Assembly: GCA_949752735.1 (NCBI GenBank) | Contig: OX457040.1 | Span: 3,947,583 to 4,011,582 of the forward strand | Source: Lumbricus terrestris | Taxonomy: Eukaryota > Annelida > Clitellata > Crassiclitellata > Lumbricidae | DNA length: 64,000 bases | Direction: 5' to 3' | Part shown: one piece after another, positions 91-54,949 of the stretch | Layout of the letters: each line of letters starts with the position of its first letter | Position numbering within the stretch: the first letter of the stretch is position 1 | Translations under genes and position numbers: made by a program | The notes under the pieces: model-generated | The model's database searches: none | Told to the model about the DNA's origin: nothing | What the model saw: only the letters and a program-made list of their open reading frames with translations

Positions 91-639
91 TTCGTTTGGT
101 GACTTGATGAGGTAGCTTGATTTGAAGTTGAGGATTAATGTTTCGTAAGTGTTGTTCCTATTAAAGGTGTTTTATTCTATCTAATTAACAGCAATTTAAA
201 TGCGTGTGATATTGTTTCGATGTCGGATAGTACGCCATCCAACGATCTAGCGAACAAACACATAGCAATTTGACAACCGGGGATAGCATAGCGAAATGAC
301 AACATAAAAGGAACTTTAACACTGCGGAGCTTCATGTTGATACACTCCATACAAGACAATACGATGCAATGCAATGAAATGCAATGCAATACCACACAAT
401 ACAATAGGCATACAATTCAATATGATACAAAACAATTGTAAAATATAATGGTTATGAAAGTCTATCCACTCAGAAGCACCCGCGACCCAACCATGGCTAA
501 AGAGAACAATCTTATGGGTAGAGAAGAATGTTGTCTCAATGTCTATATATGCATACGTCGTATAGTCCCACACGGAGCCTTTTCCAGATTGCAGGGTCAG
601 CCACAGAAAAGGCGCTTATAACAGAAGTGTGCAACTTGG
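91..639. other. Gene-free interval with one M1 motif
   Basis: No credible gene. It holds an M1 motif (AAAGGTGTTTTATT, about 163-176) and a short degenerate run of AATGC/AATAC words around 363-410. The small frames here are built from that low-complexity run and resemble no protein I recognise. Confidence 0.4.
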
Positions 640-800
640 GAGGACTTACTTACTTAGTACTTAGTCCATCCCGTGCAGAACTGCACATCGGGCAACGCAG
701 CCTCTCCACTCCTCTCGGTAACGCAGCCTCTCCACTCCTCCCGGTAACTGGAGGACAATATGCTTTTATAACGAGCGGAGAGAGCCACGGTGCTGGATGT
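640..800 (-). repeat. LINE/SINE 3'-end-like fragment with an internal 23-bp duplication
   Basis: Read on the minus strand, a CCCGATGTGCAGTTCTGCAC hairpin-like segment runs into GGATGGACTAAGTACTAAG and then (AAGT)n, the layout of a retroposon 3' end with a microsatellite tail. Within it a segment beginning GGTAACGCAGCCTCTCCACT is present twice in tandem (about 690-750). Parent family not identified. Confidence 0.4.
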
Positions 801-1029
801 CTATGACAGAGCAGCAGAGCTTCTGTAAAGCATACGCAAGTGTCATACTTGCGAAACAATGCCAAACGAAGACTGAGATCCGGTAAGTTATTCTCTGTTA
901 GAAAGGAAGCCGATGTAAGATAACCCGCATATTGTACTCAGTGACGTGCCAAAATCACTGGATTCTACTAATAAGGCCTTTGTGCTCAAAATCCGATCCA
1001 AACACCCAACCGTAGACGCCGGAAAGTGC

Positions 1030-1057
1030 ACATATATATATATATATATATATATAG
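1030..1057. repeat. (TA)n microsatellite
   Basis: About 28 bp of alternating T and A, directly upstream of a minus-strand SINE. Confidence 0.9.
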
Positions 1058-1092
1058 ATGGCGCTGCAGTAGTCAAGACGAGAGATAATGTT

Positions 1093-1316
1093 TGTCTGTA
1101 TACGTGCATTTGTTATAGAACCCCTTCAAACTCTCTACTCAGAGGCGATCCCGACTGCAGCGCGGACACTGCATCGGAGTTTCACGCCGAAGCGCTGAGC
1201 AAGTGCATGTGAAGGACTTGCCCAAGGTCCCTACGCGGCGACATGAGGTGGATTCAAACCTGCAACCATCCGGCTGCAGGGCAACAACATGACCACTACA
1301 CTACCTCGCCCCACCC
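1093..1316 (-). repeat. tRNA-derived SINE, near full length
   Basis: On the minus strand it starts with a tRNA-like head (GAGGTAGTGTAGTGGTCATG, matching a pol III A box). A B-box-like GGTTTGAATCC follows, slightly mutated from GGTTCGAATCC. The body has AAGTCCTTCAC, AGCGCTTCGGCGTGAAACTC and CGATGCAGTG. The tail has CTCTGAGTAGAGAG and a degraded CGCTATAACAAGTGCGCATA. The same architecture recurs at 3020, 42645 and 51993. The tail shares its CTCTGAGTAG...GGCGCTATA segment with L2-like LINE ends in this window. Confidence 0.85.
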
Positions 1317-1379
1317 TGTGTGCGTAGCTGTGTATGTGAAGTGGGCAGACAGATTTTGAGAGAGCGTATATATATGAAG

Positions 1380-1833: not shown

Positions 1834-1841
1834 ATATGAAG

Positions 1842-2890: not shown

Positions 2891-2895
2891 GTGTG

Positions 2896-2897
<2 letters not shown>

Positions 2898-2932
<35 letters not shown>
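2898..2932. repeat. (TCTA)n microsatellite
   Basis: About nine consecutive TATC/ATCT tetramers, then degenerate TCTG units to about 2957. Confidence 0.9.
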
Positions 2933-5150: not shown

Positions 5151-5324
5151 ACAACTATTTCAAAGTGTCAAAGCAAGGTAGCAAAGTAGATGTTTGTGAC
5201 TTATAGCTTCTTTGACTTATTCAATTCTCTCTGTCGACAACATTCTCCTTCTTCATTATCAGGTCTTCCTAACTCCGTCACTGGCTGCACTCTGCCAGTA
5301 CCAGTGCCAGTCTCATGCATTGAT

Positions 5325-5450
5325 AAAGGAGGAGGAGGGCACTGCATCGGGGGAAACTCTGATGCAGTGTGCGCTCTGTAGTCGGGAGCGCCTCTGAGTA
5401 GCGAGCTTGAAGCGGCGCCCATAACAAGTGCGCATACGAACAAACAGTGA
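5325..5450 (+). repeat. SINE 3' fragment
   Basis: Contains GATGCAGTGTGCGCTCTGTA, GTCGGGAGCGCCTCTGAGTA and CATAACAAGTGCGCATACGA, followed by ACAAACAGTGAC. The tRNA-like head is missing. The M3 module lies just upstream on the minus strand (about 5265-5325). Confidence 0.7.
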
Positions 5451-6494
5451 CTGACGGGAACGTAGTAATCTTTCTTGTTTGCCGAGATTAACGCGACGTC
5501 ATTAATTTCGTCATCCCCGTTGCGTCATTATAGCTACGAATGTGAAATATTTTATATAGCACTTGGCTAGAGCGTCAAAGGTCATCAATCTGAAATCTCA
5601 TTAAAAAATTGATGGCCATCTACATGAGTATTGATTGTTGACTTTTTTATTTATCACCGTGTAAGGACCCGACCCATTATCATCATTCTTTCTAAATTGA
5701 TGTCGTTATCGTCAAACCTGAACTTATAAAATCACTAGCTACGATTTTGAGGTGTGCAAATACATAACTTTTGTTTTCGGTGTTTATGAGAATTTTAATG
5801 GTTCAATGAAAGTGCTTACGTCCGAATGGTTAATTGAAATACTTTTGGCTAAATAACCGATTTTATAACTTTATGTCGATCTGTTTTTGAGGTGTGCAAG
5901 TGCATCAAATAATTTCCAGTGTTTTTCAGAGAGGACGGACATTGCGTGAGGCATTGCGAGTGACCAGACCGTACATCCTTCCTTTAAACGGTAGACACTG
6001 TTTCCATTGAATCTGTATCTCAAACAGTGACCGTCCGTGGCTTGAAAGGCGACCGAAGTATCGCCCGACTTAGCAATGTTCAGTTTGTTCACACAAGCAT
6101 ACACTCAATGAGAGAACAATCGGTTGTTATTCTTCTTGCGTTGAATACCGATAAAATGTATTAAACGAATTAAAGGAAAAAGTTGCTTATTACAATTTCA
6201 TATTGAAATATATTCTATTAATAAATTGAACACTCCACATTATATACCGAGACCAAGAAATTGGAATCGTTGCCTATAATTGGCAACGTTGAGTAGTTGC
6301 AGTTAAATGTCACCGTGTGATGACAAAATTCGTTAGCGACGCCCTCCTCCTTCATCCAGGCTTGAGACTGGCACTGACAGAGTGCAAACAGTGACGCTTT
6401 GCAACATAACGATATGCAGGTGTTTCTTAAAATAGTGTGCTTAAACTGGAAGCGTTTTAGGACCCAGCTTATGATGCATTTCGGTCATTCATTA

Positions 6495-7471
6495 ACCCTC
6501 GGGCTACTAAGGGGGGGTGGTTGCCACCCCCCCCCCTAGGTTTTTCGCAAATCAAACGCGTTCCGTCTGGAATAAAATTTTGAAAAAATTGGTAGCTGTA
6601 GAGGGTTCATTGGGACACATTTTGAGGTAAAACTTTTGATGATGCCCCCTACCGTTCAAAAGTTACACCCGATATACCAAAGGTACCAGGGGGGGTGGAT
6701 ACCACCCTTCCTAGAATATCGTCTGTAACTTTTCCGCCCTTTAATATTAAGATACACAAATTATACCATTCTATAGAGGGAATGTGGGGCTACATTTCCA
6801 TGCTCACTGAGTTGTCTTTTGACAACCGGAAGTGCTCAAAATAAATTGAAATATATATAAAGGTGTTTTATTTTCATAAAATTGTCATGTTGTTTCTATT
6901 ATAACTTATCCATAATTTATTTTTTAATAGAAATAAATTATGCCATTCTGTAGAGGGCATTTAGGGCTATTTTCTGATACTAAATAATTTGTTTTTTGAT
7001 GACCGGAAGTGCTCAAAATAAATTAAAATGTATGAAAATGTTGGGGTTTTTTACAACGCAAGCCGAAATGTGTGCATAAACGTTTTTCAGCGGCAAAAAC
7101 ATGTTTTTTTGTTTTGATTGAACATAAAACAGACTTATTACTAGTTTTTATAGTTGAATATTGGACTTTATTATATGTAAACTACCTTTTATATATAAAT
7201 CATGTATAAAACACACAGAATCTAATATATTTCCTATGCGTAAGTATACATTTTGTGGAATCGACGGGTACCCATGGTAAAAAATTCATAATTTCGAGGG
7301 GCATTCATATTTTTCTAAACCTAAATATACCATTTTGTGCAGAAATGAATGCTGAATCAAATGGTGTATTACAAGTTATGATATCTCAAACCCAACCCAA
7401 AATCCAGGGGGGTGGTAACCACCCCCCCCCTTGGTAGTCAGTGTTACAAAAAAAGCTTGGTAGCCTGAGGG
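6495..7471. mobile_element. piggyBac-like MITE, copy A
   Basis: The 977-bp element is flanked by TTAA (6491-6494 and 7472-7475). Its termini are inverted: CCCTCGGGCTACTAAGG at the left and CTTGGTAGCCTGAGGG at the right. TTAA duplication with CC-starting termini is diagnostic of piggyBac-type elements. G/C-rich subterminal palindromes (GGTGGTTGCCACCCC) lie at both ends, and an internal CCGGAAGTGCTCAAAATAAA is present twice. No transposase frame, so non-autonomous. Copy B is at 20858-21837. Confidence 0.9.
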
Positions 7472-7475
7472 TTAA

Positions 7476-7795
7476 AATGGCTTTTTGATTCTTTTCTCTC
7501 TTTTTTCTTCTTCTTCTTCTGTCTTCTCTTTTATGTTTCGTTGTGCTTCTAGTTTATTCCTTCCTGTCACCACCATGACCCACTCAACTATACCCGAATC
7601 TCCCACCTGTACTACTAATTCAACAAACGTCATTTACTCATCATCTTTGCAATGAATAATCATGCATCTTCCCTCTAATACTAATCCTATTACTTGTAAT
7701 TATACCCAATTTTTTCTTCACTACATATGCAAGACAAAATGTGTAACTGTTTTATTTTTTCTTTTGTGGGAGCAATAAACTTGACTTGACTTGAT
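7476..7795 (+). mobile_element. 5'-truncated LINE 3' UTR
   Basis: This segment is absent from the other two tandem copies, where TCATTCATTA runs directly into TTTTGAG. It ends GTGGGAGCAATAAACTTGAC with a (TTGAC)n tail, the same layout as the intact LINE at 61650 (CAATAAATGAATTGAATTGA). It is pyrimidine-rich, has no RT coding and is best read as a 3' UTR-only insertion of a CR1/L2-group LINE. Confidence 0.65.
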
Positions 7796-8104
7796 TTTGA
7801 GTTTGCACCATCATAATGAGGAGCGAATTGTTTCACCATAGAGACCACTGAACTTGGATCATTGGATGTTGGAATTCGATTTGTCAACGCATAAACGAGG
7901 AAGCTATTTATAAGATATATAAATTACGATATAGAGGTGTGATGACGCCTGGGTGAACAAGGTCCGAGTTCCCAAACGAGTGACCGAGGTTGGGTGGAAA
8001 AATCGGCGAATTGCATCAAGGGTCATCACTCTGAAACTTCATTAAAATCGATGGTCATCGATGTGAGTCATGATTGTTGAATTACGTTTGGTAACTTTTT
8101 GTGA

Positions 8105-8190
8105 ATCATCGTGTCCTTGGATGGATCCGATTTGACCATGGTCTATGACAATAGAGGACAGAAATTTGCTTGGCGTACTACAGCACTTAA
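8105..8190 (-). repeat. GGATCC-tailed retroposon fragment
   Basis: Same family as 1-90: GGATGGATCCGATTTGACCA, then CTATGACAATAGAGGACAG and AAATTTGCTTGGCGTACTAC. Inserted within copy 2 of the 1.5 kb tandem unit. Confidence 0.6.
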
Positions 8191-9362
8191 GAGCAAGGTA
8201 CTGAACCAGCTGAATTTATAAAATCACGCTACTATTTTGAGGTGTGCAAAGACATAACTTTTTTCAATGTTTATGAGAATCTTCAGACCGATGATAATTA
8301 TAGCCCTTCCATCTCCAAGCCAATTTAGGCGTAAACCAGTTTAAGAACGTCTTTTAAAGTCATAGAACACTAAGCATGAGCCACCTGCCCATCCAATATA
8401 AAACTTTATTTTAATGTGTTTTGAGGTGTGCAAGTGCAACATATTATTTCCAGCGGATTTGACGGACGCAATGACCGTGAGACAGTGCGAGCGACCAGAG
8501 CGTACTTCCTCCTTTTAATCGGTAGACACTGTTTCCATTGTATTTGCCCCTCAAACCAGTGACTCTCCGTGGCTTCAAAGTCAACCAAAAATCGCCCGAA
8601 ATAGCAATGTTCACACAAGCTCAATGAGAGCGCAATCGGTTAAATGTTATTGCTTTGAAAACCAGTAAGATGTCTTTAATGAATGAAACGAAGAAGTTAC
8701 TTATTACAATTACACATTGGAATATATTCTGTTAAAAATTGGACACTACACGTTATATGCCGAGACCAAGAAATTGGAGTCGCTACCTATTGGCAACGGT
8801 GAGTAGTTGCAGTTTAACGTCACTGTGATAACAAAAATGGTTAGCGACGCCCTCCTCCTTTATCCAGGCTTGGGTCTGGCACTGGCAGATTGCAACCAGT
8901 GGTTCTTTGCAACATGCGATATGCAGGTGTTTCGTAAATGTGCTTAAATTGGAAGCGTTTTAGATCTCAACTTAAAACTTATTATGCACGTCGGTCATTA
9001 CTTTTTTTGAGTTTGCACAATCATAATGAGGAACGACATTCCTTCACCAAACAGACTAGTGACGCGGATATTTGAATTCGAATTGCTAATGATCGAGCGA
9101 GGAAGTTATTTATAAGATCTAGAATCCACGATATAGAGGTATGACGACGTCCGGGTAAACAAGGTCCGAATTCCCAAACGAGCGGCCGAGGTTGGGTAGA
9201 AAAGTGAAAGGTTGAAATGAAAGACTAAACTTACTAAAGAGTGAGAAATATGGTCTGAGACTGGAACGTAGAACAACGCGAGTGACAGTGCGGCTGGATT
9301 TACTGAAGGTCAAGATCACAGAAGAGGTCTACGAATGGGAAAGCGATGTGGTCCTGGGAGGA

Positions 9363-9420
9363 GAATGGTCATCATAGCTTGAAAGGGCGCTGTAACAAGT
9401 GCACATACAAACAAACAGTG
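9363..9420 (+). repeat. SINE 3' tail fragment
   Basis: AGCTTGAAAGGGCGCTGTAA then CAAGTGCACATACAAACAAA is the last ~50 bp of the tRNA-derived SINE. It joins the tandem unit at the same place as the SINE fragment ending at 5450, so it was probably part of the ancestral unit. Confidence 0.6.
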
Positions 9421-10799
9421 ACTTACGGTAACGTGGTAATCTTGCTTGTTTGCCGAGATTATCGCGATGTCATTAGTTTCGTCATCGGCGTTGCGTCATT
9501 ATAGCTTTGAATGTGAAATAATTTATATAGCGCTTGGCTAGACCATCATAGGTCATCACTCTGAAATTTCATTAAAATTGATGATCATGTAGGCCTACTT
9601 GAATCATGTTGACTTAGGCCTACGCGGATAACAGTTTTTATGAATCACCGTGTAAGACTTCGATAGTATTCAAATGTTTTAGCGTCAAAGCAGAATTTAT
9701 AAAATCACTTGCTACTATTTTGGGGTGTGCAAAAATATAACTTGTTTTCAGTGTTTCTGAGAATCTTCAGGCCGACGATGTAACTCTTCCACTTGCAAGC
9801 CAATTAAGGCGTAAGCCAGTTTAGGGACATCTTCTAAAGTCAGAGAACACTAAGCATGACCCATCTGCCCATCTTACCCACCATCCCACTTAAATTGCCA
9901 CCTGATTCAATGAAAGTGCTAACGTCGGAATGGTTGACTGAAAATTAATGCCTTTGGCTAAATAACGTTTTTTATAACATTAGTTCAATCTGTTTTTGAG
10001 GTGTGCAAGTGCATCGTATTATTTTCAGTGTTTTACAAAGACCGCGAGCGACCAGACCGTACTTCAATCCTTTAAACGGTATAGATACTTTTTCCATTGC
10101 ATTTTGCCACTCAAAACAGAGACCATCCGTGGCTTCAAAGGCGACCGAAATATCGCCTGACCTAGCAATGTTCACACAAGCAATGAGAGAGCAATCGGTT
10201 GTTTTTGTTCCTGCGTTGAATACCGATAAAATGTTTGAAATGAATTAAATGAAAAAGTTGCTTATTACAATTTCATACTGAAATATATTCTATTAATAAA
10301 TTGGACACTACACATTAAATGCCGAAACCAAGAAATTGCAGTCTTTACCTATTGGCAAAGGTGAGTAGTTGCAGTTTAACGTCACTGTGATAATAAAAAT
10401 CGCTAGCGACGCCCTCGTCTTTTTTGCAGGCTTGGGACTGGCACTGGCAGAGTGCAACCAGTGGCGCTTTGCAACATGCTATTATGCTGGTATTTCGCAA
10501 ATGTGCTTAAATTGGAAGCGTTTTAGATCTCAATTTAAAACTTATTATGCATTTCGGTCATTCATTATTTTGAGTATAAACAATCATAATGAGGAACGAA
10601 CTCCGTCACCAGAGACACCAGTGACACATGATGGATATGACAGATTCGCAAACAAATAATGGGAAGCTATTTATAAGATCTAGAATTCACAATATAGAGG
10701 TGTGACAACGCCCCGGTTAAAATTGAACAAGATCCGAGTTCCCAAAAGAGCGGCCGAGGTTTGGTGGAAAAGTTGACTATGCCGGTGAGATGGAAGATC

Positions 10800-11500
10800 A
10801 GCAGAGACTAAAGAGTGAAAAAATATGGACTGAGATTGGAACGTGAAACAATGCGAGTGACAGTACTTTTTGGTTTACTAAAGGTCGAGATGACAGAATA
10901 TCGCTACGTTTGGCGAAAATGAGAAGGACTGGAGCGGCAGGTTAAATAATATGAAAGAGATGTGGTCCTGGGAGGAGAATAGAGTAGCGAAATTCTTGCT
11001 ACATTCAGGTGCAAAAGCAGCACTACTAGGATACAGGTCAGCCAACTCTAGGATCACTGTAGCTTGATTTTATGGACAATCTCTGAACCTCTGAGTCATC
11101 CGGATAATTATATGCACACACGGCAGACAGCACAGAAGAAGAAGAAGACCTATTGAAAGAACACATTGAACACATTAAAAGACATCAAAATCATAATTAT
11201 GTAGGGACTGGAATGCAAAGCCGGGACAGGATGGGAGCGCATTATGCTATCGATCAAGAAATGAAAGAGGAAAGAGAGACTATTAGAATTTGCAGCCAAT
11301 CATGAATTGATAATTTCGAACACCAAATTAAAACAAAAGGACTGTATACTAGATATACTTGGACATCGCCAGGTGGGAACACACAAGCATCGCAGCATTA
11401 AAACAGTACTTTTCAGCCGATTTTGAGTCGGGAGCGCTCCTGAGTAGTAATCATGAAAGGGGTACTATATAAATCTCTATGTTGTGAGTTGCCCTGAAAA
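10800..11500. other. Gene-free interval with LINE-tail remnants
   Basis: About 11130-11147 has a CAGAAGAAGAAGAAG tail preceded by GTCATCCGGATAATTATATG, resembling a LINE 3' end. At 11425-11475 the L2-like/SINE 3' signature GAGTCGGGAGCGCTCCTGAG, then GGTACTATATAAAT, is visible. No gene. Confidence 0.4.
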
Positions 11501-15262: not shown

Positions 15263-15399
15263 AAGTTTAACAAATAACACATGGCATTTTACACCTTTAA
15301 AAATATGTTTTCACATCCAATAAATCATGGAATTTTACTTTAAATGCAACTTTATGTTGGTACCCCTTCTGCTCAACTCCTTGCAAGTCGAGATCTTCA

Positions 15400-17152: not shown

Positions 17153-18424
17153 CGTTAAACTGATACTAATGCTTCAGCAGTCTATCACTGCTACGTGATC
17201 AGATAGTGAACGTGACGTCATTCGATTGTCGTCTCCATTATATTATAATATATTATAATACTGCTCAATGGCTGTTTCACAACGTAGGAATTTCGATATC
17301 CAATTAAATATTATTTGCCATTGAAAAAAAATTCTATGATTAAAATGTGAGTGTAGGAAAATAGAGCATTAGGCCTACAATGTATAACAAACACTTTCAG
17401 TGTCAATGAAAAATGAAAGATTACTACCTTGTCACCTTGTGCCGTCGATTTTTGGAACCCTAGCAACAGAAAGATGGCAACGCATACCTTTTATTGCTGA
17501 ATTTTTAAATGATATATTTCTAGCAGTTTCTCAGAAGTCTAATCACCTGCGCAATTGAATTTTTTTTTTAATTAATAAAATGACTCAATCAAAGTATGAT
17601 AATTATAGACCAATGGCATCACCTATTAGGGGTGTTTAATCCAACCCACATTTATCGCCCTTTGCTTAGTGACATCTAACGTTCGACAGAGACGACGAAG
17701 ACGACTCCACATAAAATATTCACCCGACGAATAATATTTGATTCATTTTTCAATTGCTTACCATCATCTTGTGGTTGTCATGGTCGATGACGTCGACATT
17801 ACGTAATCAAAATCATGTTTAGCGTCATTTATAGGATTTATAACTCCGCCAGATTTCTATTGTTTAACGACATCTTGTGGCATCAAAGTCGATTGGAAAC
17901 AAACGGATCCAATATTTAACGACAGCTTATGACGACAGAGGCCATTGTCGCTCGAAAGAATTATTATTGGGATGAAAATCATTGGTCCTTTACATTCCGC
18001 AGCTCGATAGTTGAGTGGCTACAGCGGATATATAATATTGTCAATCGAAAGATCGGTGTTCAAAATGTGGTTAGCGGTTGGCTGTTCCGTATTCACCCAT
18101 AGACAACCCATGGAGAATGAATTCGCTGATCTACACTGTCGGTGGTAGGATGAGACGGCGAAGGAGAAGACTGACCATTGGCCACTAAACCTCGTGTGTC
18201 GACGCTAAGAAACTACGGAAGTTAATACTTCATTCTCATGGCTGCTTCAGGATTTAATTTTCATTCTCTTGCACCGTGGCACAGAATACACGAGCGACTC
18301 TAATAATGATTGTTTAGCGATGCTGTGTCATAGGAAAGATGGCTTATGCATATCGCTCCTGTTTGCGCAATCTTGTGACAGGAACTCGAATAGTTTATAC
18401 TTTATAGAAATCTATATCATACTA

Positions 18425-19386: not shown

Positions 19387-19559
19387 TAGTTACTGCTGCT
19401 TGACGACGTAATACTCAAAATTCCGTGGTATTTTATTTAATGCTGCTAGGATTTTTTTATTCAAGGTGTTTAATTGTGGCGTTGTACAATAAAATACACC
19501 TCTAAGACGTCACCACCTACACCACCACCACTCTGCAATAATATTATAAGCGCTAATTA

Positions 19560-20850
19560 AACACCTTTGTTAAGAGGTAACAAGACATTAGGCCTATAGT
19601 AATCCTTCACGCGGAATATTTCTCTAAATGCTGCTGCAAATCATAATTTTGGCGAGATGTCTGAGCAAGAATTTCTTAGTAATTTTAACTGAGAAAAAAA
19701 ATTGCTGCTCCATATTTGCCAACTACGCGATTCAGTTAGGAAACGTACACTGACATGCAATGTCGAAGGAAGGATGAAACGGCGAGGGAGAGGACTGGCC
19801 ACTCGTCCGTGCATGTTGGGAGTAGTAAAATAAAGCGACTAATGTTTCGTGCTCTACGTCATCTCCTTTCACGGAAGAACAGAATATTTGAACGAGTATT
19901 TGACTGGTTAATTATTGTTAAAAGCTGATGAAAGATGACTAACAACTGCGTCACGATCCGATCCTGCCTAACGTACTATTGAGGCTGGAACTCGAACAGA
20001 TTTTGCAGTTCAAAGTTATCTTTTAGTTTTTGAATCAAAGTACAAAATGTTTACAAACATTTTCATATTTAGCTTGCATTCTCAGTGCAGAACAAAATGC
20101 AGAGAAACGATGCAATACTAATTTAAAATGTCCTCGTCGATATTTTCTATTATTACGAAGTCTGTCATGATATTACGCAGTAGATGTACATTGCAGAGAT
20201 TAGTATTTATAAACGACTGCGACCATTTTCATTTTCCAAGACAATGTACAACAAAATGCACTGAAGCAATGCCCATTATTATTACAGAATGAGATGTTTA
20301 GTATCAGATTTGTAATAGCGTTGCTGAAAGGAACCGTACAGTCGATATCATAAGCGGATGCATCATAATTATATTGATTGAGACACGATTTGCAATGTTT
20401 AATCAACGTTATACTTATTACGCGAGGAACGAATAGCAATAGTTGAACAATTACAGTCGCGGATTTATAGCTGCTGATATCTCTTATTCTAGGTGTTTAA
20501 TTGTCGACTTGTCCGACTTAAATCAGCAACTCAGTTTTATCTGCCTTGCATCTTTCATCTTCAAGCACAATACATTAGTAGCGACAAGCGATGAATTTTA
20601 AGTTCTTAACTTCTTTCTTTCTCTGTGCAAAAGACATCCGTCGCTTATTGAAATGAAAGTAAATAATTTAGCCCCTCTGATTTTCCGTCAACATTTACGT
20701 CAAAATCAAAATGATTTTCCAGTTTCATACTCAAAATTATCTCATCAACGTTGTTCATTATGCCGTCAATCCCGCACTACATCATGAAAACAGATTTAAA
20801 AAATAACTGCATAATTTTTTAATGATAAAACTGACAGGACAAGCAAAAAA
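19560..20850. other. Old repeat DNA without genes
   Basis: Part of the degenerate ~1 kb repeat tract. It has opposed M1 motifs at 19556 (minus) and 20491 (plus) and M5 near 19760. The plus-strand M1 at 20491 is preceded by GGATTTATAGCTG about 30 bp upstream. No gene. Confidence 0.4.
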
Positions 20851-21837: not shown

Positions 21838-22196
21838 TTAATTACAATTTTTCACGATTTATCGATTAAATAATCGTTAGAGACCGCTGTTATTATGCAA
21901 CTGTAATGTATGACCAAAGCTGTTGATGCTTATTGTAAACTGACTGTATACCTATTAAAGGTGTTTAATTCCACTCTGAGTTTAACGTATGACTTCGAGA
22001 AATCGACGCCACATAATTTCAACAGTACAAAATTCGTTCGCTTATAAATTACTTAGTGGCATCTCTTGGTTGCCATATCTGATGACATCAACATAACCAA
22101 ATTGTGCTAAGCGTCATTGATAGTATTTCTAACAGGACTAGCTTTCAATAGTATGACATCTTATGGTATAAAGAACCGTTAAAGTCGAAGTAATTC

Positions 22197-32705: not shown

Positions 32706-33309
32706 TGGATCGACGCCAACAGAATCATCGACCGCAAGATGTCGTTTATCGCTGATAACTACGTAAAGAATAACGCTGGAATTATACACCTTTAATAATA
32801 CTACCAATTTTATTAGAATATTCGTCAGCTAATTGACGCTTCAATTCCAACGCCAAATCGTATTACAAACAGAAGCTGATTTAAGTATTAAGTATTTATC
32901 TACACTTTTGTTGCGTCAGACACAAGGATGGGGCATAGATGATTGCGATGTTGGCAACTGTTTTAAGCTCTAGTAAACTTGAATAAAATAACTACAATCA
33001 TGAATCAAGTAATCACTTCAAGTGCCAGTCCCAAGAGTGCATACAACAGGTGAGCGACGTCAGTCAAGCATCATTCCTATGAAGCATAGCCTAATCATTA
33101 AACCATCGAATAGTAGGGTTACTGGTTCTTATAATATACCTGGTCCTTCCACTTTCTCTGCAGATGAATTGCTTCGGATGATTTCATGCACGTGTGATGG
33201 AAAACCATCGAACGAAGTGTACTGTACAAGATGCGTCTTTTCCTCTGCGTTCCAGCATTGAGCACACCTTTTTTAAGGATTCCAAACCAATACTTGCGAC
33301 TGAACTTCG
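32706..33309. other. Gene-free interval with M2-M1 pair
   Basis: GACCGCAAGATGTCGTTTAT (M2, 32731-32750) is followed about 30 bp later by ATTATACACCTTTAATAATA (minus-strand M1, 32781). This is the same order and orientation seen at 37009/37042 and 44452/44505. No gene. Confidence 0.5.
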
Positions 33310-34430: not shown

Positions 34431-36630
34431 ACGCTAATTAAAACTCCAACCATAAAGCGCATAGCAGACTTTTTGCGTCTGTTTTCAGCAACCTTGTTAT
34501 CCATCCATTGCATAAAATTATTAACGCTGAACAAGCAAACTCGAGGGCCGATCCCATGACCATGAGCTCTGCATGATTGACAACCTTATCCAAAAATGCT
34601 TCCTTGCCAGGTTAATATACAAACAAACAAGGTTTTCCCTACATAGTTATATTGTCATTAAGCTCTTCTTTTAACTCTTCCTCCTAAATGTCACTCTTTT
34701 CTATACAGTATAATGTGTCTCATTTGCTTACTTGCTTACTTGCTTGTGCACTTATTCTGTTAAAAAGGCGTTTAAATGTATGAAGTTTGACATGTAAACG
34801 TACATTGTCGTACGTTTAATAAATTATATTTGCTAACTTATTACATTGTAACACTGACGCTTTGTATAGCTATGTAATGTTGGTCAAAGTCGACTCATTG
34901 ACCCGGGCTGACAAAATATGTCCTTCATTATTTAAAATCTACTCTTGCTGGTATTTGGAGAACGTTTAAATAGTTACTGTAACGTAGGGTGATGTAATCT
35001 ACTGTTAGACCACAAGAAATGTGGAAACTATTCCTTATAAAAAATGCGTGAATTTAACACCTTTGTTAAGCGGTATCCAAAAGCCATAATAAACACAGAA
35101 TGCTCACAGCTGCTATTAAGTTTCAAGAGTGTAGTAAGTTGCTTCAGTCTGTTTACAGTTGACTATCATTTGGCAGAGCTGCTATGATTATGATCCTAAG
35201 GGCCATGATTATAACTATATTATAATTGTGTCCAGTGGTCAATATAAACCTGAAATTTAATGACCTCAATAGAAATAAGGAGGTTCAGAATTCAAGATTA
35301 AGGGTAAGAAAAGTAAATCTAAATGAAAGACCCAATCCCATGAAGAATCATCAAAATGGTTATTGTAATTTAAATAAAGTCAGAGACAACATAGATAATT
35401 TATTGTTAACTTGTCAAAAAGAAAATATATCTACCACTTTAATTAAGAGATTCGTGTGTTTCTTTTAATGTAGACTAACACCAGGAATTTGCTTGATACT
35501 GATTAAATGCAAAGTGTTGTTTATAGGCTTATAAACCGAATAAACAAAGGAGAAATTGTATAAACACTGTCATTTGTAAGACAGTGTAAACAGTTTATAC
35601 ATTGTGCATGAATCATCTATTAAGATGTGCATGCACCATAATCTGTGAAGCATTGCTTTATTTCTGAATGTTTGTTATTATTTTATATGTCATTTTATTT
35701 TCTCGTTAATTTTGAGTGTCAATTTAAACAATAGAACACGAATTGCACGATGGCTGATAGAGACTTAGACAACGTTAGCAATTTTGATCAGTTGTTAAAC
35801 TTAAGAAAATAAGGAAAACGATTTCATTTGTGTGACAGTGTGTTAAAACTGATGGAGAGTCTGTTTGTTTACATTGAGTGTCGTTCAATTACAATATGGC
35901 TTTATCTGATTATTGTTTATGGCATTTGCTCTTCTATAAACTTTTAGTAGGCTATCCATGATATTTAAATCAATAAATCAATCGCCGTCGACGCAATCAA
36001 AATGGCGCAGATCTCTGCCAATATTGTGACAATTGCGAAACAAGTTTCTTTTAAAATAAACGTGGTGGGGTTGTGGTATAATTCACCTTCATCTTGGTTG
36101 CCATGAGGTTAGGATAGGTCGGTTAACTGTACTTACAACAACAAGATGTCGTTGAACGATAGAAAAGTACAATTATATTATTCGGTCTATAGAAATGTAC
36201 GTCGACTATGACGTCATTGACTCAAGCGGTGTTGGTTGAAGCTTTCATGGATCAAATAAGATAACCTAAGAGTGTTGAAAGACACCCTTAAAAAGGTGTG
36301 TTATAACTCTACAATGAACATCAGTGTCGCCATTCGTCGTCTCTTACAGTCAATGTGTACAACATCTTGCCGTTGTCTGTGTACGACGCAGAAAGGAGAC
36401 AACGAATAACCATAATTATGTGAGCATCATCCAAAAAGAATCGCTATTAGAAAAAAGGAAGCAACATAAGTAAAATTCTTTTCCGAAGTATGCCCGTGGG
36501 AACATTCTCCAAGAATAGAGAATATTAAAATAATTTTTAAAGTACACTTTCAAATTCGCCTCAACGAAATATTTTTGGGAATTTGAGTCTGAAAATCACC
36601 GGTATATAGGTCAACAGTGTACCATGTTGC
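34431..36630. other. Gene-free interval
   Basis: About 2.2 kb without a recognised gene. M1 on minus at 35053 (ATTTAACACCTTTGTTAAG), M2 at 36140 (CAACAAGATGTCGTTGAACG), and opposed ACACCCTTAAAAAGGTGTG at 36282-36300, which is a near palindrome. AT-rich. Confidence 0.4.
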
Positions 36631-36735: not shown

Positions 36736-37385
36736 TAAATTATAATAAATAATATTCGCTTGCGTAGCTATTCAGTTACAAATGATTTGTCTATAGCAAA
36801 CGAACGGCAGTTCCTGTTTTAAAATACGGCTGTCAATTTAAACGATTTATTAATCGATTAAATTTATGCTTATTCGACAAACTCCTTAATATTTTTCAAA
36901 GTTATATTTATGATGCGTGCGGCCACTTTTAGAATTAAAAACATATTGAACAATGATGATGTGGACTTTCTGAGTTACTTAGTCGTCTCTGTTGACCGTT
37001 AGATGTCGCTAAAAATGGAGACTTTGTTAATATAGAGTGGCATTAAACACCTTTATTAGGTAACCTATATAATTTATTAAAGTTTGCCAAGCGTATTTTC
37101 TCTATTATAATAAACTGTCTCCTGACAAGATGGTAATCAGAGCTGTTAGCGGTCAAAACATCATTATTGATTTAATATTCCTGGAATGCATCCTGGAAAC
37201 GGGTCAAAATTCTCATTTCCCGATAGGCATTGCGTTCCAGCTTTCTTAGAATTTCTTCCTGAACTCAAAAAATCTTTCTTTTGCTTGTAGCACCAAAATG
37301 CACAGTGCTGGGCTAAAAGATCGGACTATTCAGCTGTAATAATCATCGTAATGATTTATGGCAAAACAGCTCTTTGCTGACGACC
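36736..37385. other. Gene-free interval with M2-M1 pair
   Basis: GACCGTTAGATGTCGCTAAA (37000-37019) and, about 25 bp later, GGCATTAAACACCTTTATTA (37039-37058). Then TATATAATTTAT about 15 bp further on. No gene. Confidence 0.5.
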
Positions 37386-45790: not shown

Positions 45791-47633
45791 ACTGACAGAG
45801 GAAACCGTCTGCAGTAACAGAGTACATAAAAACTGTAATAATATATTTTCAGATAAGAGAAATAGGCGAGAAAAATAAAACTGTGTTTTTAGATTATTTT
45901 AATTGAAGGCTGCAATTCTACACCTTGAATAAGGCGTTTCCTCATCTATATAAATTTTAAACTACGCAATTTTTTGTATTAGATTCGAAGTAGGCCGTCT
46001 TTCTTGCGTCGTCAATTAGTCCAGAAGTGCATTAAGCTGGAGAGAGGGAGACAGTACTAGTCATCTTTCCAATGAAACATTATTTGCTCTTGCTACAGAC
46101 GATGCCACTGAAATTCACAGACATCAACGTTAAACAATGAAAATTAAATCGCTCAAGTATTCTGTGCAACGATGTAAAAAAGACGATGAAGAGCAATCTA
46201 TTGAGTAGCCCTGAAGCAGCCATGAGTATAATTATTCAGTATTAGCGACTTCATTTTCTTTGCCTCTGCATATGAGGGCAAGTGAACAGTCTTCTCACTC
46301 GCCGTCTCTTCCTCTCACCGACAGTGCAGACCATTTCAATCATTCTACATGTAGCTGAGTTGTTTAGGTGCAAAGGCGGAACAAACAACATGTAGCGTTT
46401 AAATTTGCATGAGCTCTTATCAAATAAAATAATAACAAAACTTGTTAATCTACTTATAATGAGTAGGAATTAAGCAATGTATAGCTATATAAGCTAAGTC
46501 GTGGCGCATTTTAAATAATTAATGATTTAATGTGGCTTATGGTGGATAAAATAAGAAAATGCGACATTTATACAATGATTATTTAGCCAAACATAGTCCA
46601 GTCGTTCCATAGATGAGTCGTTCCAATATTCTGTGCTGTGGCACGTTGTTAGAGGATGAAGAAGTAACCATTTTAAACGCGAGTATCCCTGAATCAGCCA
46701 CGAGTACGAAGCAATATTGTCTTGGTATTATTTTTAGCCTCAGCATAAGAGGACGAGTGAACAGTCCTCTGCCTCGCCGTCTAATCATTCCAACTGAGTC
46801 GTATAATAGGGGCAAAGCAGAAAGCCTTGGTTAACCATGTCCATTAAGGCAATAGCCACTAAACTATCGACTTGCGATTTAAAACTGTCGACGAATTTAT
46901 TCCCTCTTGACTTCATCTTTGATGCCTTAAGGTGATGAAAGCTGAAAAAGGAAACCGTCTGCAGCAACAGAGTACATAAAAACTGTAATAATTTTCAGAT
47001 AAGAGAAATAGGCGAAAACAATAAAACTGTGTTTTTAGATTATTTTAATTGAAGGCTACAATTAAACACCTTGAATAAGAAATTTCCTCGTTTATATAAA
47101 TTCTAAAATACGTAATTATTAAATTCGAACTTTGCTCGACGCAATTCTCGAGAGTTCATTAAGCTGGATAGACGGTGACACCAGTTACTGTTACTAGTCA
47201 TCTATCCAATGAAACATCATTTGCAGCTTGCTACTGTAACAGACGATGCCACGGAAATTCACAGACATCAACGTTAAACAAAGAAAAGTCAAATCGTTCA
47301 AGTATTCTGTGCAACGATGTAAAAAGATGATGAAGAGCATTCCAATGAAGCGAATAGCCCTATAGCAGAAATGAGCACAATTAAGCATTAGCGACTTCAT
47401 TTTCTTAGCCTCTGCATAATTATGAGGGCGAGTCACTGAATAATCCTCTCACCGACAGTGCAGACCATTTCTGCATGAGCTGTTTAGGTGCAAGGGCGGA
47501 ACAAACAACCTATAGCGTTTAAATTTGCTTATCAAATAAAATAAATGATAATTTAATGTAGCTTAGGGTCATAACTGTTCTCAGAACTTTTGAGATGAGT
47601 ACACGCTGCTTCCGGAAAAAATTGACTTTTTTG

Positions 47634-48545
47634 GCCCAAAAATTTCTGACGACCTTTTTTAGTCATCGAAATTTCTTAAGATCTTTTTTTAGTCATCGAA
47701 ATTTCTTAAGACCTTTTTTAGTCATCGAAATTTCTTAAGACCTTTTTTAATCATCGAAATTTCTTACGATCTTTTTTTAGTCATCGAAATTTCTTAAGAT
47801 CTTTTTTTAGTCATCGAAATTTCTTAAGACCTTTTTTAGTCATCGAAATTTCTTAAGACCTTTTTTTAATCATCGAAATTTCTTACGATCTTTTTTTAGT
47901 CATCGAAATTTCTTACGATCTTTTTTTAATAATCGAAATTTCTAACGATTTTTTTAATCATCGAAATTTCTTACGATCTTTTTTTAATCATCGAAATTTC
48001 TGACGACCTTTTTTAGTCATCGAAATTTCTGATGACCTTTTTAGTCATCGAAATTTCTAACGATTTTTTTTTAATCATCGAAATTTCTTACGATCTTTTT
48101 TTAGTCATCGAAATTTCTTACGATCTTTTTTTAATAATCGAAATTTCTAACGATTTTTTTATTCTTCGAAATTTCTTTCGATCTTTTTTTAATCATCGAA
48201 ATTTCTGACGATCTTTTTTAGTCATCGAAATTGTCTGACAACCTTTTTTAGCCATCGAAATTTCTGACGACCTTTTTTAGTCATCGAAATTTCTGACGAC
48301 CTTTTTTAGCCATCGAAATTGTCTGACGACCTTTTTTAGCCATCGAAATTGTCCGACGACCTTTTTTAGCCATCGAAATTTCTGACGACCTTTTTTAGCC
48401 ATCGAAATTGTCTGACGACCTTTTTAGCCATCGAAATTTTTGACGATCTTTTTTAGCCATCGAAATTTTTGACGACTTTTTTTAATAATCGAAATTCCTG
48501 ACGACCTTTTTTTATCATCGAAATTTCTGACGACCTTTTTTTAGT
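47634..48545. repeat. ~30-copy tandem array of a ~30-bp unit
   Basis: Unit: CGAAATTTCTGACGACCTTT followed by TTTTAGTCAT, with two main variants (TCTTAAGACC/TCTTACGATC on the left and TCTGACGACC towards the right). The unit is far too uniform, with no unique spacers, to be CRISPR. The same unit occurs singly or doubly in other elements at about 1605, 12540-12640, 22265-22365, 23840 and 54590. The array is bounded on the right by GTATGCGCTGCATACCCGCG, as in the 12.36 kb repeat. Confidence 0.9.
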
Positions 48546-49815: not shown

Positions 49816-51985
49816 TGCCATAAGATGTGGTTGAACTATCGAACGCTGGCGCAGTAATAATATCCTTTCAATGACAGCCGCTAGATGTCCGCTAAGTTAT
49901 TTTAAAGTCAATGAAATAATTATTATTCATCGCGTAGAAATTTATGTCGCATCTACTTCGTCGTCTATGTCTACCGCTAGATTTCGCAAAACAATGAAAG
50001 GTGCACGCTAAGTTTAGAGTGGCATTAAACACCTCTGATAGATGGTTCACAATTATTATAAATATTAATTTCGGAAAAAAAATGTGTAATAGGATGTAAC
50101 AGGGTTTGGGTAAGCGCAACAGAACAAATCGATGGCCCAAGAGATTGGGCTTCAGAGTCTATATATACATGTAATTTTTATATAAAAAATAAACCACATG
50201 CGTACTCAATTTCTTTGACTCTGAGACTGTTCGTCATTTGCACTATTTCCCTACACTTTTACTGTGATCATAGAACATTGGAATAATAGGGAACATAATA
50301 TTTGATTGGATTTCAAAATTCTTAAGTTGAAAAAGTGTCATTAATCAGTAATAAATGAATTTAAACAGTTGGCATATACATTGAAGAAAATACCTTGGCG
50401 AAACAGGAAATTTCCACTAATTTACCATATGCAAAAAGACAACCCTAATAGCCGCGAGATGTCGTTATGCACTGACAATGATTCACAACATTAAATCGAT
50501 TGTTACATAAATTGTGGCTATGTATTTCTTCGCTTATGTACATGCAAATGTACATAAGCGTACACATGAAAATGTTAAACGTTTTTCTTCATCACATTTT
50601 GAGTTAAAAATCAACGCATAGAAAATTTATGGAGAAGAAAAAAACGATTGAAAATGTCGAAGGCTTTGTTCGTACGTTTGTATTGGTCTGCTTGGTGGAA
50701 GTATATGTGGTTTTAACTACCTTAGGTCCGGAATATCACCAGACAATGATTGGTGCCGTTTCAGGAAAGACAATAAAAACGAAGTGGCCATGGTGAACAC
50801 TGATGATGTGCAACTTATTCTGAGTAGAAAGCTAAGAAATCATTTTGCATTTGATGCTATTTCTGATGTAAAAATCAGACGGGACCAAATTAATTAGTTT
50901 AAATGTAAAATACATTTCGACTGAGGTCTTCAATAAAGTACATGTAGATCTCGCAACCCGTGTTAAAGGGCACATTTATCCTTGTGGCATACGGGTAGGA
51001 TTCTACTGACACTGAAACGCTTCCATATTCAACAAACTCCCAGGTTTCTTATGAAATACATATATATATATATATATATATAATACAAAGTTATCCAATT
51101 GCATGCAAGCAAACAAACAATTATCCTAACTACCTAGTGTGTCGAGTTATCTAAGGAATATTTTATTTGTGCTTATCTATCGAGTTGTATGACGATACTC
51201 GATTGACTTCGGTTTCTCTCCGTCAACAATCTTCTCCTTAACTAAGAATGTAGTCATGGAAGGAACCACATCAACTGTCTTACTCGTATCTTGCCGTATC
51301 ACGATTGCTCGTAAGGTGAACCGTCGTATTTACCTTACAGCCTTCCTCTTCTGTAGACCAAACGTCCGTTAGTTCACACCGGCCGATCAGCTGCTCTTTC
51401 GTCGATTCAAAAGCACGAGTCTAAAGACCGTTGCATAAGAGTTCGTCAGACTAAGTCTTCACGAGCGCTTCCCTTCACTCTATAATAAAATGTGCATCAA
51501 CGCGAATTCTCTTTCAAATTCCGTTGCATCCAATGCACGACACTTTGATCTATCGTGGACTTTCCAATATTATTAGACCAATAAGCTTCGTCTTCACTCT
51601 TGAAAATAATATAACTTTAGATTGACCGCTGTTGCGAATCAATTTTCCATTTCCAGTCATACCAGTCATATCGTCTCTTTTGCTGACGTCAGTTTTCCTG
51701 CGTCACGGCATTCGTTTCCAGGTTGCGCACATCGTTGATAGGCTAAGCGTCCTTTGGTTGGAATGATAACCTTGAAATCCTCACTGCGTTTGGCTTCAGG
51801 CCTTGATATTTATGTATCTCATTTGTTATATTTGCCACATACTATCTAAACTCGCCAATTAAATCGTCTAGCATAAATATTACTTAGAATTAATAATAAT
51901 TATGAATACATAGCAATTGTTTAATTTGATAAGCGTTTATTCTAACCGCTACAGTAGTAAGTACATGCATGTGCACATACATTTG
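49816..51985. other. Gene-free interval
   Basis: M2-like CCGCTAGATGTCCGCTAAGT (49880), CCGCTAGATTTCGCAAAACA (49975) and minus-strand M1 (50022). Another M2 (CCGCGAGATGTCGTTATGCA, 50453). A (TA)n run at 51058-51083. The rest, including 50.5-52 kb, has nothing I recognise. Confidence 0.4.
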
Positions 51986-51992
51986 CATACGT

Positions 51993-52225
51993 GAGGCGCG
52001 GTGGTGTAGTGGTGGCGTCGCTGCCTTGAAACCGGAAGGTTCGGGGTTCGAATCCACCTCGCCGCGTAAGGACCTTGGGCAAGTCCTTCACTCACAATTG
52101 CTCAGCGCTTCGGCGTGAAACTCCGATGCAGTGTCCGCTCTGCATTCGGGAGCGCCTCTGAGTAGAGAGAGCTTGAAGGGGGCTATAACAAGTGCGCATA
52201 CAAACAAACAAAACAAACAAGCATT
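51993..52225 (+). repeat. tRNA-derived SINE, best full-length copy
   Basis: GAGGCGCGGTGGTGTAGTGG contains the A box (TGGTGTAGTGG). The perfect B box GGTTCGAATCC is at 52045-52055, about 42 bp downstream, the spacing of a tRNA internal pol III promoter. Body: CAAGTCCTTCACTCACAATT, GCTCAGCGCTTCGGCGTGAA, ACTCCGATGCAGTGTCCGCT. 3' part: TCGGGAGCGCCTCTGAGTAG and CTATAACAAGTGCGCATACA, then a (CAAA)n tail. It would be transcribed by RNA polymerase III and mobilised by a LINE. Since the 3' CTCTGAGTAG...GGCGCTATA segment matches the L2-like LINE 3' end, that LINE is the probable partner. Confidence 0.92.
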
Positions 52226-53540
52226 TCTAGAGTCGTCGATTGTCTGTATATATAATATTGTGCTAGACACTAGACAGGCTAGATTGGAAGGACGGACGAA
52301 AACTGCGCTGTTGGAATTAATCCATTAATTAAAGACTGCAATTAAACACTTTCAATAAGAATATCACTAGCTATAAATTAAAAAAAAAATTGCGAGTCAA
52401 TTATTCTTTGTCGCTGCAGCTTTTACAGTAACGTGCTTAGCCTAAATGTGGATAGGAAATTTAGATTGTGCAATGACTCAAGTGTCTAGACTCTAGAGGT
52501 CACACCACTGTTTCTTTCTCGCTTAAAAACTGCCTTATTTAGCCGTTGTTGGACTGGGAGCGTTTCTGAGTAGACTACCTTGAAGGTGCGCTATATAAAA
52601 AGTCAATAATAACGAGAATGTGGAACTTTTGAATAAGAAATCATTTTGCATATGATGTAGAATTGTAATGCTGGCGTAAAAATCGGATAATGCTAGATTC
52701 ATTTACTTCAGTGCAATATATTATACTATATTATATTATACCGAGGTTTTCTGTACAAGGCAGAACTCAAAACTCGTCGCTTGTCGCTTACTATTTATTG
52801 TGCTAGAATATTAATAAGTATGATTAAAAGAAAAACTGCACTTGATTTGCATAATCTATTCGAGTGCTAGTCCCAAGGGTGTGCTAAGCAGGATGGTGGC
52901 GTCATTTTTGGCCGTTTTATGTTAAAACCAACGTTAAACAGCAATTAGCCAAATAGTCTGTGCTGTAGTGTAAGGAGATGAAGAAGATTAGGAAGCATCA
53001 GTGGCTATACTTCCTTAACATCGACTTTCGATGGCGCGTGGCAAGTCCTCTCCGTCGCCGTCACGTCCTACCACCGACAATTTAGGCCATTGTACTCATT
53101 ATAACTGAGTTGTCGAGGTGGCGAAGTCGGAGAAGCAAACTTAGAACCACATTGGAGCATTCCTACAGCATGTAATTTTGAAATTTCAAACGTTTTTATT
53201 GTCTAACTAATCCTCCAAAAAACTCTAGGCATCTGTTGAGCTCTTAATGCAGCCACATTTCGAGTCAAGGATTGTTATAATGTAATTACACTTCTTAACA
53301 AAGGTGTTTAATTCACGCATTTAACTAAACAGAAAATTTTCTACGCTGGGTGACATCTTACAGCCAATTGACAGTTGATGTCAAAAAAATTTGCGAGAAT
53401 TTAAGATACCAAAGTATAAATCCTGTGGGAGTGAGGAGGCGGAGGGAATAGGAGAGGAAGAGGAACAGGAAGAAAATGAGGTTGTAGAAGGTGATGAAGA
53501 AAAAGACAAGGAATAAATAATGATGACGTTAATGCTAATG
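52226..53540. other. Gene-free interval with LINE tail and old repeat modules
   Basis: L2-like 3' end at 52505-52612 (CGCTTAAAAACTGCCTTATT, GGGAGCGTTTCTGAGTAGAC, GGTGCGCTATATAAA). Minus-strand M1 at 52339 and plus-strand M1 at 53299, about 50 bp before GGGTGACATCTTACAGCCAA (M2, 53348). M3 (CGAGTGCTAGTCCCAAGGGT) at 52860 and M5 in reverse near 53045-53100. This is another degenerate copy of the 17.6-23.4 kb repeat. Confidence 0.5.
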
Positions 53541-53543
53541 TTA

Positions 53544-53616
<73 letters not shown>
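53541..53616. repeat. (GAT)n microsatellite
   Basis: About 25 uninterrupted GAT triplets. The minus-strand poly-isoleucine frame is an artefact. Confidence 0.95.
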
Positions 53617-54949
53617 GATAGAGGAGAAGGAGTAGTGATATGAATAGTAAATCAGTTGAGAGGCATCTAATTCTCACCATCTCCATGTTCTCTGCCTTGG
53701 CACACGACTGTAGGCTGACGGCCTAACATATTCAACACTGTTATGATTTCGCCAATAGCTTGAATAAGACACCTTTAATATGTATCTTTCTTTTACAATA
53801 ATATCCGTGAAATTCATACTACCATCAGCATAACACACATTAACCTTTATCACTCATGAGACCGCTCACAGCGGACATTTGAAAAACCGCTTTAACTCAT
53901 ATGTCCGGTGTAGGCGGACATTAGTTTGTGAAGGCCGAAGGAGTTCCTATGATACATATGATACATGATATATATAATATATATGACATATATCATATAT
54001 ATATGATATATATATGATATATATATGATATATCTCATGTATATATATCATATATATATGATTTATATATGATAAATATAATGATAAATAGTATAAATAT
54101 CATATACACATATCATTTATATATCATATATATCATGTATATATCATATATAATATATATAATATATATCATATATGTCATTTATATATGATATATACAT
54201 GATATATATGATATATATCATATATATTAGATATATTATATATATGATATATATATTATATATATCATATATATGTTATATATATGATATATGTTACATA
54301 ATGATATATATATCATATTTATCATATATCTACATGATATAGAGGATGTATATATTTATCGTATATATAATATATGATATATATCATATATCGATATGTA
54401 GACATATATGCTACTGCTATATAAATATGATATATATGATATATATATGATATAATATCATATATATTATATCTTTTATAATATACATATGATATATATC
54501 ATATATGAACAAGGGCGGATCCAGGAATTTTCGAAGGGGGGGGCCAAAAAATTTTTGGGCTGGGGTCGGAAATTTTTTCGTTGATCTTTCGCCGAAAAAT
54601 CTGATGAACTTTTTTAGTGGTTTTTGGCCGAAACCAGAGTTTAATTTAGCCCCCACCTCTGGGGGAATTGAGGTTTTCGGAGGGGTAGATAACTGACCGT
54701 CTGAAGACAATCATGAGGCGCGCAGCGCCGATAGTGGTAGGGGAGGGGTGTGGGGAGGGGATATGCCCCTCCCCACCAGAAACTTTTTGAATTTTCACAT
54801 TGCAATGGTAGCATTTTAAGCTGTTATCTTAACAAATTAGCTGTACTTTTCAGTGCTTGTAAGAGTGCCATAAGGTCTCAATAAATATAGACTTTACTTA
54901 AAAACTTCTTTCCCGAAAACTAGATGTTCTTTTTTAAGTAATCCGCCGG

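Follow-up and report, generated by a model that had tools for sequence, protein, structure and literature searches.

The window analysed here is a 64,000-nucleotide stretch of DNA, C6:3947583-4011582 of a 1.056-Gb genome, and all but its last 10 kb is occupied by part of an array of units built around a short recurrent motif with an AGGTGT core. The units have in common the sequence, spacing, direction and clustering of their motif, and its core is common to the proximal sequence element (PSE) of the genome's own small nuclear RNA (snRNA) genes. We consider it probable that this is a dense array of snRNA-type PSE units that make many different short noncoding RNAs, most likely precursors of small RNAs. 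The predicted starts in the array have a median spacing of ~860 bp.

Recurrence of the motif

The original prediction, made from the sequence of the window, was that a motif, M1 (AAGGTGTTTAATT), is present over 30 times in DNA that otherwise differs from copy to copy. The recurrence was borne out, far above shuffled sequence. With up to 2 mismatches allowed, AGGTGTTTAATT has 51 matches in the window compared to 12.7 (maximum 21) in 100 shuffles, and GGTGTNNAA has 64 compared to 8.6 (maximum 15) in 50 block-wise Markov shuffles; composition-matched shuffles thus do not reach the observed count. Thirty-five of the 36 coordinates first given for the motif lie within ~10 bp of sites in our final list, and the copy at 44232 has a score of 7.1, under the matrix cut-off.

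The AGGTGT copies are of two kinds, tandem-repeat copies and dispersed copies. Those in a hAT-like minisatellite (54.9-55.6 kb and 62.8-63.4 kb) and in a 122-bp tandem (26.37-27.2 kb) have no TATA at the expected place, and both repeats were masked, together with microsatellites, before later motif counts. Among the dispersed copies, 34 strict cores (RGGTGTNNAA) were picked without regard to TATA, and a TATA-like word was found at -31 to -17 in 21 of them, compared to 0-5 at eleven control offsets. A matrix comprising the motif and the TATA region was cross-validated between the array halves, using a threshold of 10 and 60 shuffles. The matrix from 19 left-half sites gave 20 matches in 31-54 kb (shuffles 1.57, maximum 5), and the matrix from 10 right-half sites gave 15 matches in 0-31 kb (shuffles 0.88, maximum 4). 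The refined matrix found 58 sites over 0-54 kb, from which site 3901, 21 bp from 3880, was dropped to leave a final list of 57. Nothing above chance was found in 54-64 kb, with one match at threshold 6 compared to 1.7 in shuffles and none at 7 or above.

The flanks of the motif had been described as drifting, and in agreement with this the copies, compared in register, resemble each other strongly over no more than about 60 bp (z of 8 to 21 in windows covering -20 to +40). In a TTTAATT subset a weaker similarity (z of ~3 to 5) reaches as far as -60 and +80, and a faint in-register signal was also observed at -360 to -280.

Promoter architecture and direction

Read on the other strand, the motif is ACACCT, followed by a gap of mostly 21-22 bp, a TATA box and an initiator ~58 bp past ACACCT. 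The gap is 21-22 in 18 of the 25 window sites with an exact TATA, and on this strand the TATA box reads TATAAATA. To assign a direction, exact TATA words were taken blind to their flanks; TATAWA fits 16 of these 25 sites facing away from AGGTGT, compared to 8 of 25 facing towards it, as on the strand first described. ATT was found 31 nt past the first T of TATA in 19 of 48 non-redundant sites (4.3 expected), tandem duplicates being collapsed in position counts, and none of 100 random-shift sets gave as strong a signal. In the left half of the array the count is 11 of 28 (largest control 7). By ascending score bin, ATT occurs in 2/9, 2/8, 2/14 and then, at scores of 25 or more, 13/17 sites (control mean 1.6, largest 5), at a place that lies outside the matrix. 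For comparison with the YRNT initiator of nematode type-I piRNA genes, the base before the A was read: it is a pyrimidine in 16 of the 24 window initiators with ATT, giving a YATT-like form that is weaker outside the window. Since the TATA flanks and the initiator face away from AGGTGT, the motif is best placed as an upstream element, ~58 bp before the start. A TATA near the motif had been part of the original prediction, and it is a genuine part of the same promoter; the direction then assumed does not stand.

We also looked at ACATCT as a candidate distal activating element. It occurs at +40 to +59 of the strand first described in 7 of 49 sites (0.28 expected), and outside the window there are 4 AGATGTC-like words in 23 units (controls 1 and 0).

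The sites could be read forward instead, with a TATA promoter that initiates at AGGTGT. In this sense 18 of 25 sites do have a TATA 25-26 bp ahead of AGGTGT, GACATCT stands at +41 to +50 of five sites, and in 8 of 9 cases a dispersed 230-bp block follows a copy at a distance of up to 1.2 kb. The TATA flanks and the initiator point the opposite way, however, and in the U1, U2 and U6 genes of this genome ACACC stands on the sense strand, ahead of the RNA. The forward reading is nearly refuted by this snRNA comparison and we regard it as very improbable.

In the proposed order, a unit would sometimes begin with AGATGTC ~45-50 bp upstream of the PSE, followed by the PSE, TTAAACACCTTNAATA, with ACACCT at ~-58, then the gap, TATAAATA or a degenerate form at ~-31, and the predicted initiator A at +1. 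The array, its strong units and one duplicated block are as follows; TATA and ATT are exact matches unless stated.

1-54000, both strands: part of the array, with 57 PSE-like sites including tandem duplicates, 34 facing minus and 23 facing plus
5400-10918, units facing minus: three diverged tandem duplicates with at least 8 PSE-TATA units (from the duplicate alignment)
9945-10008, minus: unit with PSE 9991-10008, TATA and predicted initiator ~9945; score 29.3
15287-15349, plus: unit with PSE 15287-15304 and predicted start ~15349, without exact TATA or ATT; score 25.2
17576-17639, minus: unit with PSE 17622-17639, TATA, predicted initiator ~17576 and AGATGTC upstream of the PSE; score 27.7
19412-19473, minus: unit with PSE 19456-19473 and predicted initiator ~19412, without exact TATA; score 27.0
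19557-19618, plus: unit with PSE 19557-19574 and predicted initiator ~19618, without exact TATA; score 27.1
20440-20500, minus: unit with PSE 20483-20500, TATA and predicted initiator ~20440; score 25.4
21907-21968, minus: unit with PSE 21951-21968 and predicted initiator ~21907, without exact TATA; score 28.9
23209-23271, minus: unit with PSE 23254-23271, TATA and predicted initiator ~23209; score 25.3
24623-24685, minus: unit with PSE 24668-24685, TATA and predicted initiator ~24623; score 27.3
31860-31922, plus: unit with PSE 31860-31877, TATA and predicted initiator ~31922; score 35.1
32782-32844, plus: unit with PSE 32782-32799, predicted initiator ~32844 and AGATGTC upstream of the PSE, without exact TATA; score 28.0
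35053-35115, plus: unit with PSE 35053-35070 and predicted initiator ~35115, without exact TATA; score 28.6
37043-37104, plus: unit with PSE 37043-37060, predicted initiator ~37104 and AGATGTC upstream of the PSE, without exact TATA; score 29.3
45916-45978, plus: unit with PSE 45916-45933, TATA and predicted initiator ~45978, a tandem duplicate of the 47062 unit; score 25.3
47062-47123, plus: unit with PSE 47062-47079, TATA and predicted initiator ~47123; score 35.4
50025-50088, plus: unit with PSE 50025-50042, TATA and predicted start ~50088, without ATT; score 29.9
52342-52403, plus: unit with PSE 52342-52359, TATA and predicted initiator ~52403; score 27.0
53248-53311, minus: unit with PSE 53294-53311, TATA, predicted initiator ~53248 and AGATGTC upstream of the PSE; score 34.4
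53765-53827, plus: unit with PSE 53765-53782 and predicted start ~53827, without exact TATA or ATT; score 31.2

Kinship with the genome's snRNA promoters

The promoters of the genome's own snRNA genes were compared with the array. Of 19 U1 matches, 12 genes were read, and 11 of these carry ACACC at -57 or -58. Of 46 U2 matches, 8 genes were read, and all carry it at -57, apart from one at -55. Of 16 U6 matches, 7 high-scoring genes were read, and 4 carry it at -60. The presence of this core at the matching position in U1, U2 and U6 argues that the motif, judged by its sequence, is the PSE of an snRNA-type promoter. The gap between ACACCT and TATA, counted by eye, is 19-23 in those U1 genes, 6 of 11, in which an exact TATA stands at that place; it is 21-22 in U2 (TATAG in 5, TATGTA in 3) and 27-29 in the four U6 genes. 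The array spacing is of the U1/U2 type and not of the U6 type. In addition, a matrix built only from 19 U1/U2 elements found 23 window sites at threshold 12 compared to 3.6 in shuffles (largest 7).

These results support the earlier view that the constant core marks a bound site rather than chance, since the core is common to the PSE of the U1, U2 and U6 genes. The other suggestion, a mechanistic end in the sense of a transposon end, was not upheld: the promoter elements stand at fixed spacing, but the copies have no common ends. The T-box half-site begins with the six bases AGGTGT, and a cluster of T-box or other half-sites acting as an enhancer was considered. The consensus, however, lacks GTGTGA (+6 is T in 42% and +7 in 78% of sites) and fails AGGTGTGA, the TATA spacing is fixed and the core is common to the snRNA PSE, so that this reading, which the original prediction had raised as a link, has hardly any credibility left.

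The array element lies ~58 bp upstream of the predicted initiator, inside the 40-65 bp range for a PSE and close to the -55 to -58 of U1/U2. The Drosophila PSEA is given as ~21 bp long and lies at ~-40 to -60, and in U6 the TATA follows it after 12 bp (PMC4227766); a TATA beside the PSE is said to select RNA polymerase III in human genes (PMC6004067). The human rule is not simply applicable here because the U1/U2 genes themselves often have a TATA-like word. With the U1/U2 promoters of this genome the array shares the PSE core, the PSE position, the PSE-TATA gap and the A at +1; it differs in its many tandem and dispersed units, in its varied and unrecognised predicted RNAs, and in a somewhat different PSE 3' half and TATAAATA form. 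With type 3 RNA polymerase III promoters (U6, 7SK) it shares a PSE plus TATA, but the gap is mostly 21-23 compared to 27-29 in the U6 genes of this genome, and T-run terminators are in no clear excess. A first T4 run falls within 20-150 downstream in 0.64 of cases compared to 0.50, and a T5 run in 0.32 compared to 0.26; polymerase III terminators were rejected on these values.

Predicted products and genomic extent

The PSE would be bound by SNAPc and the TATA box by TBP, and RNA polymerase II would start a short noncoding transcript at the initiator A and terminate early. We favour polymerase II for two reasons: the PSE-TATA gap matches U1/U2 and not U6, and T-run terminators are not clearly enriched. 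The transcripts may be many different short RNAs under little sequence constraint or under pressure to diversify. We infer a small-RNA product: most likely the transcripts would be precursors that give rise to a repertoire of small RNAs, on the pattern of the nematode type-I PIWI-interacting RNA (piRNA) clusters.

Tandem duplicates were aligned around the predicted starts. In sets A, C and D, identity is 0.82-0.89 in the promoter bin, compared to 0.15-0.60 in the bins -20 to 0 and 0 to +30, in 7 of 7 pairs, and in the clearest pairs (5750/9723, 9137/10698 and 45916/47062) it rises again to 0.74-0.93 downstream of these bins. In the alignment of the three duplicates, read by eye, identity is uninterrupted over at most 20 columns, and these are the motif. 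The divergence of the start region fits RNA genes with a product that may be free, or driven, to change, and this is the weakest link in the argument.

The units might alternatively be promoters of a tandem, fast-evolving family of protein-coding or long noncoding genes, with a PSE-like upstream element by chance. The array has grown partly by tandem duplication, the 230-bp block recurs 9 times beside units, and open reading frames (ORFs) of at least 50 aa with an ATG lie within 150 nt of the start in 10 of 48 units compared to 10.9% in controls. Yet no peptide is common, as judged by eye, to the ORFs of at least 40 aa near the starts, some of which are fragments of transposons; among the predicted ORFs, no shared ORF downstream of the units was seen by eye. 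Strong splice donors occur in 0-300 of 1 in 48 units (controls 0 and 0). The block itself mostly has stops, with frames of 74 and 83 aa left open in two copies, has no Pfam match in the three pieces scanned and is almost without a common fold. We consider a gene family of this kind unlikely.

Searches for known RNAs were also made. Rfam listed 61 matches on the window, none above the gathering score (microsatellite microRNA-like, weak small nucleolar RNA-like in the same repeat, and twister-like). Two candidates for further elements were rejected: a box, CACGGTGATTCANNAAAAAGT, near 4 units, which are too few, and a 3' module common to the window and to units on C14, which is a common dispersed repeat.

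To determine the extent of the array, the exact composite promoter pattern was searched in the genome, where such counts are lower bounds. Of at least 29 matches, the number listed, 16 lie in C6:2.63-4.42 Mb (1.8 Mb), one of these 16 in the window; the reversed control pattern gave at least 2 genome matches. Stretches of 10 kb in the cluster zone, 6 of 7 of which were picked at a known match, hold 3-10 sites each at a score of 20 or more (44 in 70 kb), compared to 0, 0, 2, 0, 0 and 0 at C6 2.0, 5.0, 10, 30 and 45 Mb and C12 20 Mb (2 in 60 kb). Around the non-cluster matches, 13 of the 29 listed, neighbouring sites at this score are sparser than in the cluster, 0.16 compared to 0.39 per kb. Of 23 strong units in other C6 stretches, 18 have a TATA, and in 16 of these it follows ACACCT after a gap of 21-23.

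Outside this cluster, a small family of PSE-TATA units lies on C14 at 9.1-12.7 Mb (L050-L056), followed by sequence antisense to the middle of the U6 snRNA. Its promoter was read in L054 and partly in L055 and L056, and the family was seen also through U6-like matches at 9-13 Mb. The arrangement reads as a single event that was later copied. An array of U2 snRNA genes lies at C9:29.54-29.81 Mb, in addition to many dispersed U2 copies, and some U2-like copies at C6 2.08-2.41 Mb adjoin the promoter cluster.

The sites might also be relics, either dead copies of RNA genes driven by snRNA promoters or promoter-bearing repeats that were spread by duplication and are now unused. Many sites are without TATA or initiator, and the 13 of 29 listed composite matches outside the main cluster, such as the C14 family with its U6-like antisense stretch, would suit such an origin. 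The promoter elements, on the other hand, stay in register while most other sequence drifts, and the longest identity run of the three-way alignment coincides with the motif. This makes the relic explanation improbable.

A number of results weigh against an array of working snRNA-type units. The initiator signal in the right half of the array, 8 of 20, equals the largest control (8), and below a score of 25 it is close to chance, with 6 of 31 compared to ~3.1 for the summed control means. Exact TATA and ATT are both present in only 17 sites of the 57-site list, and among the 19 strong units given above 8 lack an exact TATA; perhaps 20-30 sites are real or intact, and perhaps half of the 57 are decayed or false. 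Outside the window the ATT initiator is weaker, in 4 of 15 cluster units and 3 of 13 at other loci (control means 1.3, largest 6 and 4), and AAT at 57-58 occurs in 10 of 23 units (control mean 2.4, largest 8). Sites with a score of 16 or more are as dense near non-cluster matches as in the cluster, 0.55 compared to 0.43 per kb. Of the duplicates, the other pairs of sets A, C and D have no downstream recovery of identity, set B has no clear dip around the predicted start, and the dip at 8240, a set A copy, contains a dispersed repeat. The predicted RNAs match or complement other window sequence no better than controls. Finally, just 8 of the 23 sites found by the U1/U2-only matrix belong to the 57-site list, the PSE 3' half differs (AATA in the array, TTTATT in U2), and at threshold 11 this matrix finds 2-18 matches per 10-kb stretch in the cluster and 0, 1, 2, 2, 5 and 16 elsewhere, the 16 being in one non-cluster stretch, C6:10.0 Mb. 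Because the array PSE has its own 3' half, the overlap is 8 of 23 and the C6:10.0 Mb stretch has such matches, the array and snRNA elements are related yet distinguishable.

The RNA sequence of nematode type-I piRNAs is not known to be conserved, and the predicted RNA region of the array likewise has drifting flanks and divergent duplicates. The upstream motif of nematode piRNAs derives from the SNAPc motif of snRNA genes, and in C. elegans the piRNA genes are grouped into megabase clusters of single-promoter units with short capped precursors (PMC6436959). The type-I (21U-RNA) clusters resemble the array in being dense, two-stranded and megabase-scale, in their single-promoter units and in an upstream motif akin to the snRNA element. 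The array differs in that its consensus, TTAAACACCTTNAATA, is without the GTTTC (Ruby) core, in having TATA, in a PSE ~58 bp upstream of the start compared to ~42 from the 21U and in lying in a 1.06-Gb genome.

In print, small-RNA gene clusters driven by snRNA promoters seem to be a nematode speciality; the titles and abstract beginnings listed by searches of open PubMed Central papers gave no case outside nematodes, which is no proof of absence. It is possible, and we suggest it only tentatively, that a non-nematode animal has turned a U1/U2-type promoter into a megabase cluster of diversifying small-RNA genes, most likely piRNA precursors. If this is true, and the genome is not that of a nematode, the co-option of snRNA promoters to express an RNA repertoire either happened repeatedly or is of ancient origin. 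The array would also offer a natural experiment on how spacing and PSE sequence assign a single type of promoter to snRNA or to small-RNA genes, and the analysis yields a concrete map of predicted start sites.

Other elements in the window

Two elements, at 54510-56655 and 62337-64000, are 99% identical over their first 300 bp and are presumably hAT-like by their ends; both contain a 67-bp minisatellite with an exact AGGTGTTTAATT and no TATA. An uninterrupted long interspersed nuclear element (LINE) reading frame at 58015-61371 (plus strand) encodes 1118 aa with endonuclease and reverse transcriptase and ends in a GAATT-type repeat tail. We take it to be of the CR1-like clade. The closest of 120 relatives listed, on a JGI contig, is 92% identical over 72% of the query. 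No relatives were found in viral or prokaryote collections, and the exact composite promoter pattern had no match in the viral collection.

Type-P1 twister-like matches were observed at 5266-5340 (plus), 6342-6383 (minus), 8846-8896 (minus), 10408-10475 (minus) and 30915-30983 (plus). All five score 29-39 bits, below the Rfam cut-off of 67.2, yet much of the core is present, and three lie at the equivalent place in three tandem duplicates. The 230-bp dispersed block (about GGATGAGACGGCGAGGGAGAGGACTG) stands at nine places in the array, for example 18068, 19694, 46836, 48926 and 53149. It was rejected as a protein-coding exon, with stops in most copies and no Pfam match for the three pieces scanned, and as a structured RNA, with 4 weak pairs only. 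Between duplicated blocks, 47640-48541 consists of ~30 copies of a 30-bp tandem unit, AAATTTCTGACGACCTTTTTTAGTCATCG.

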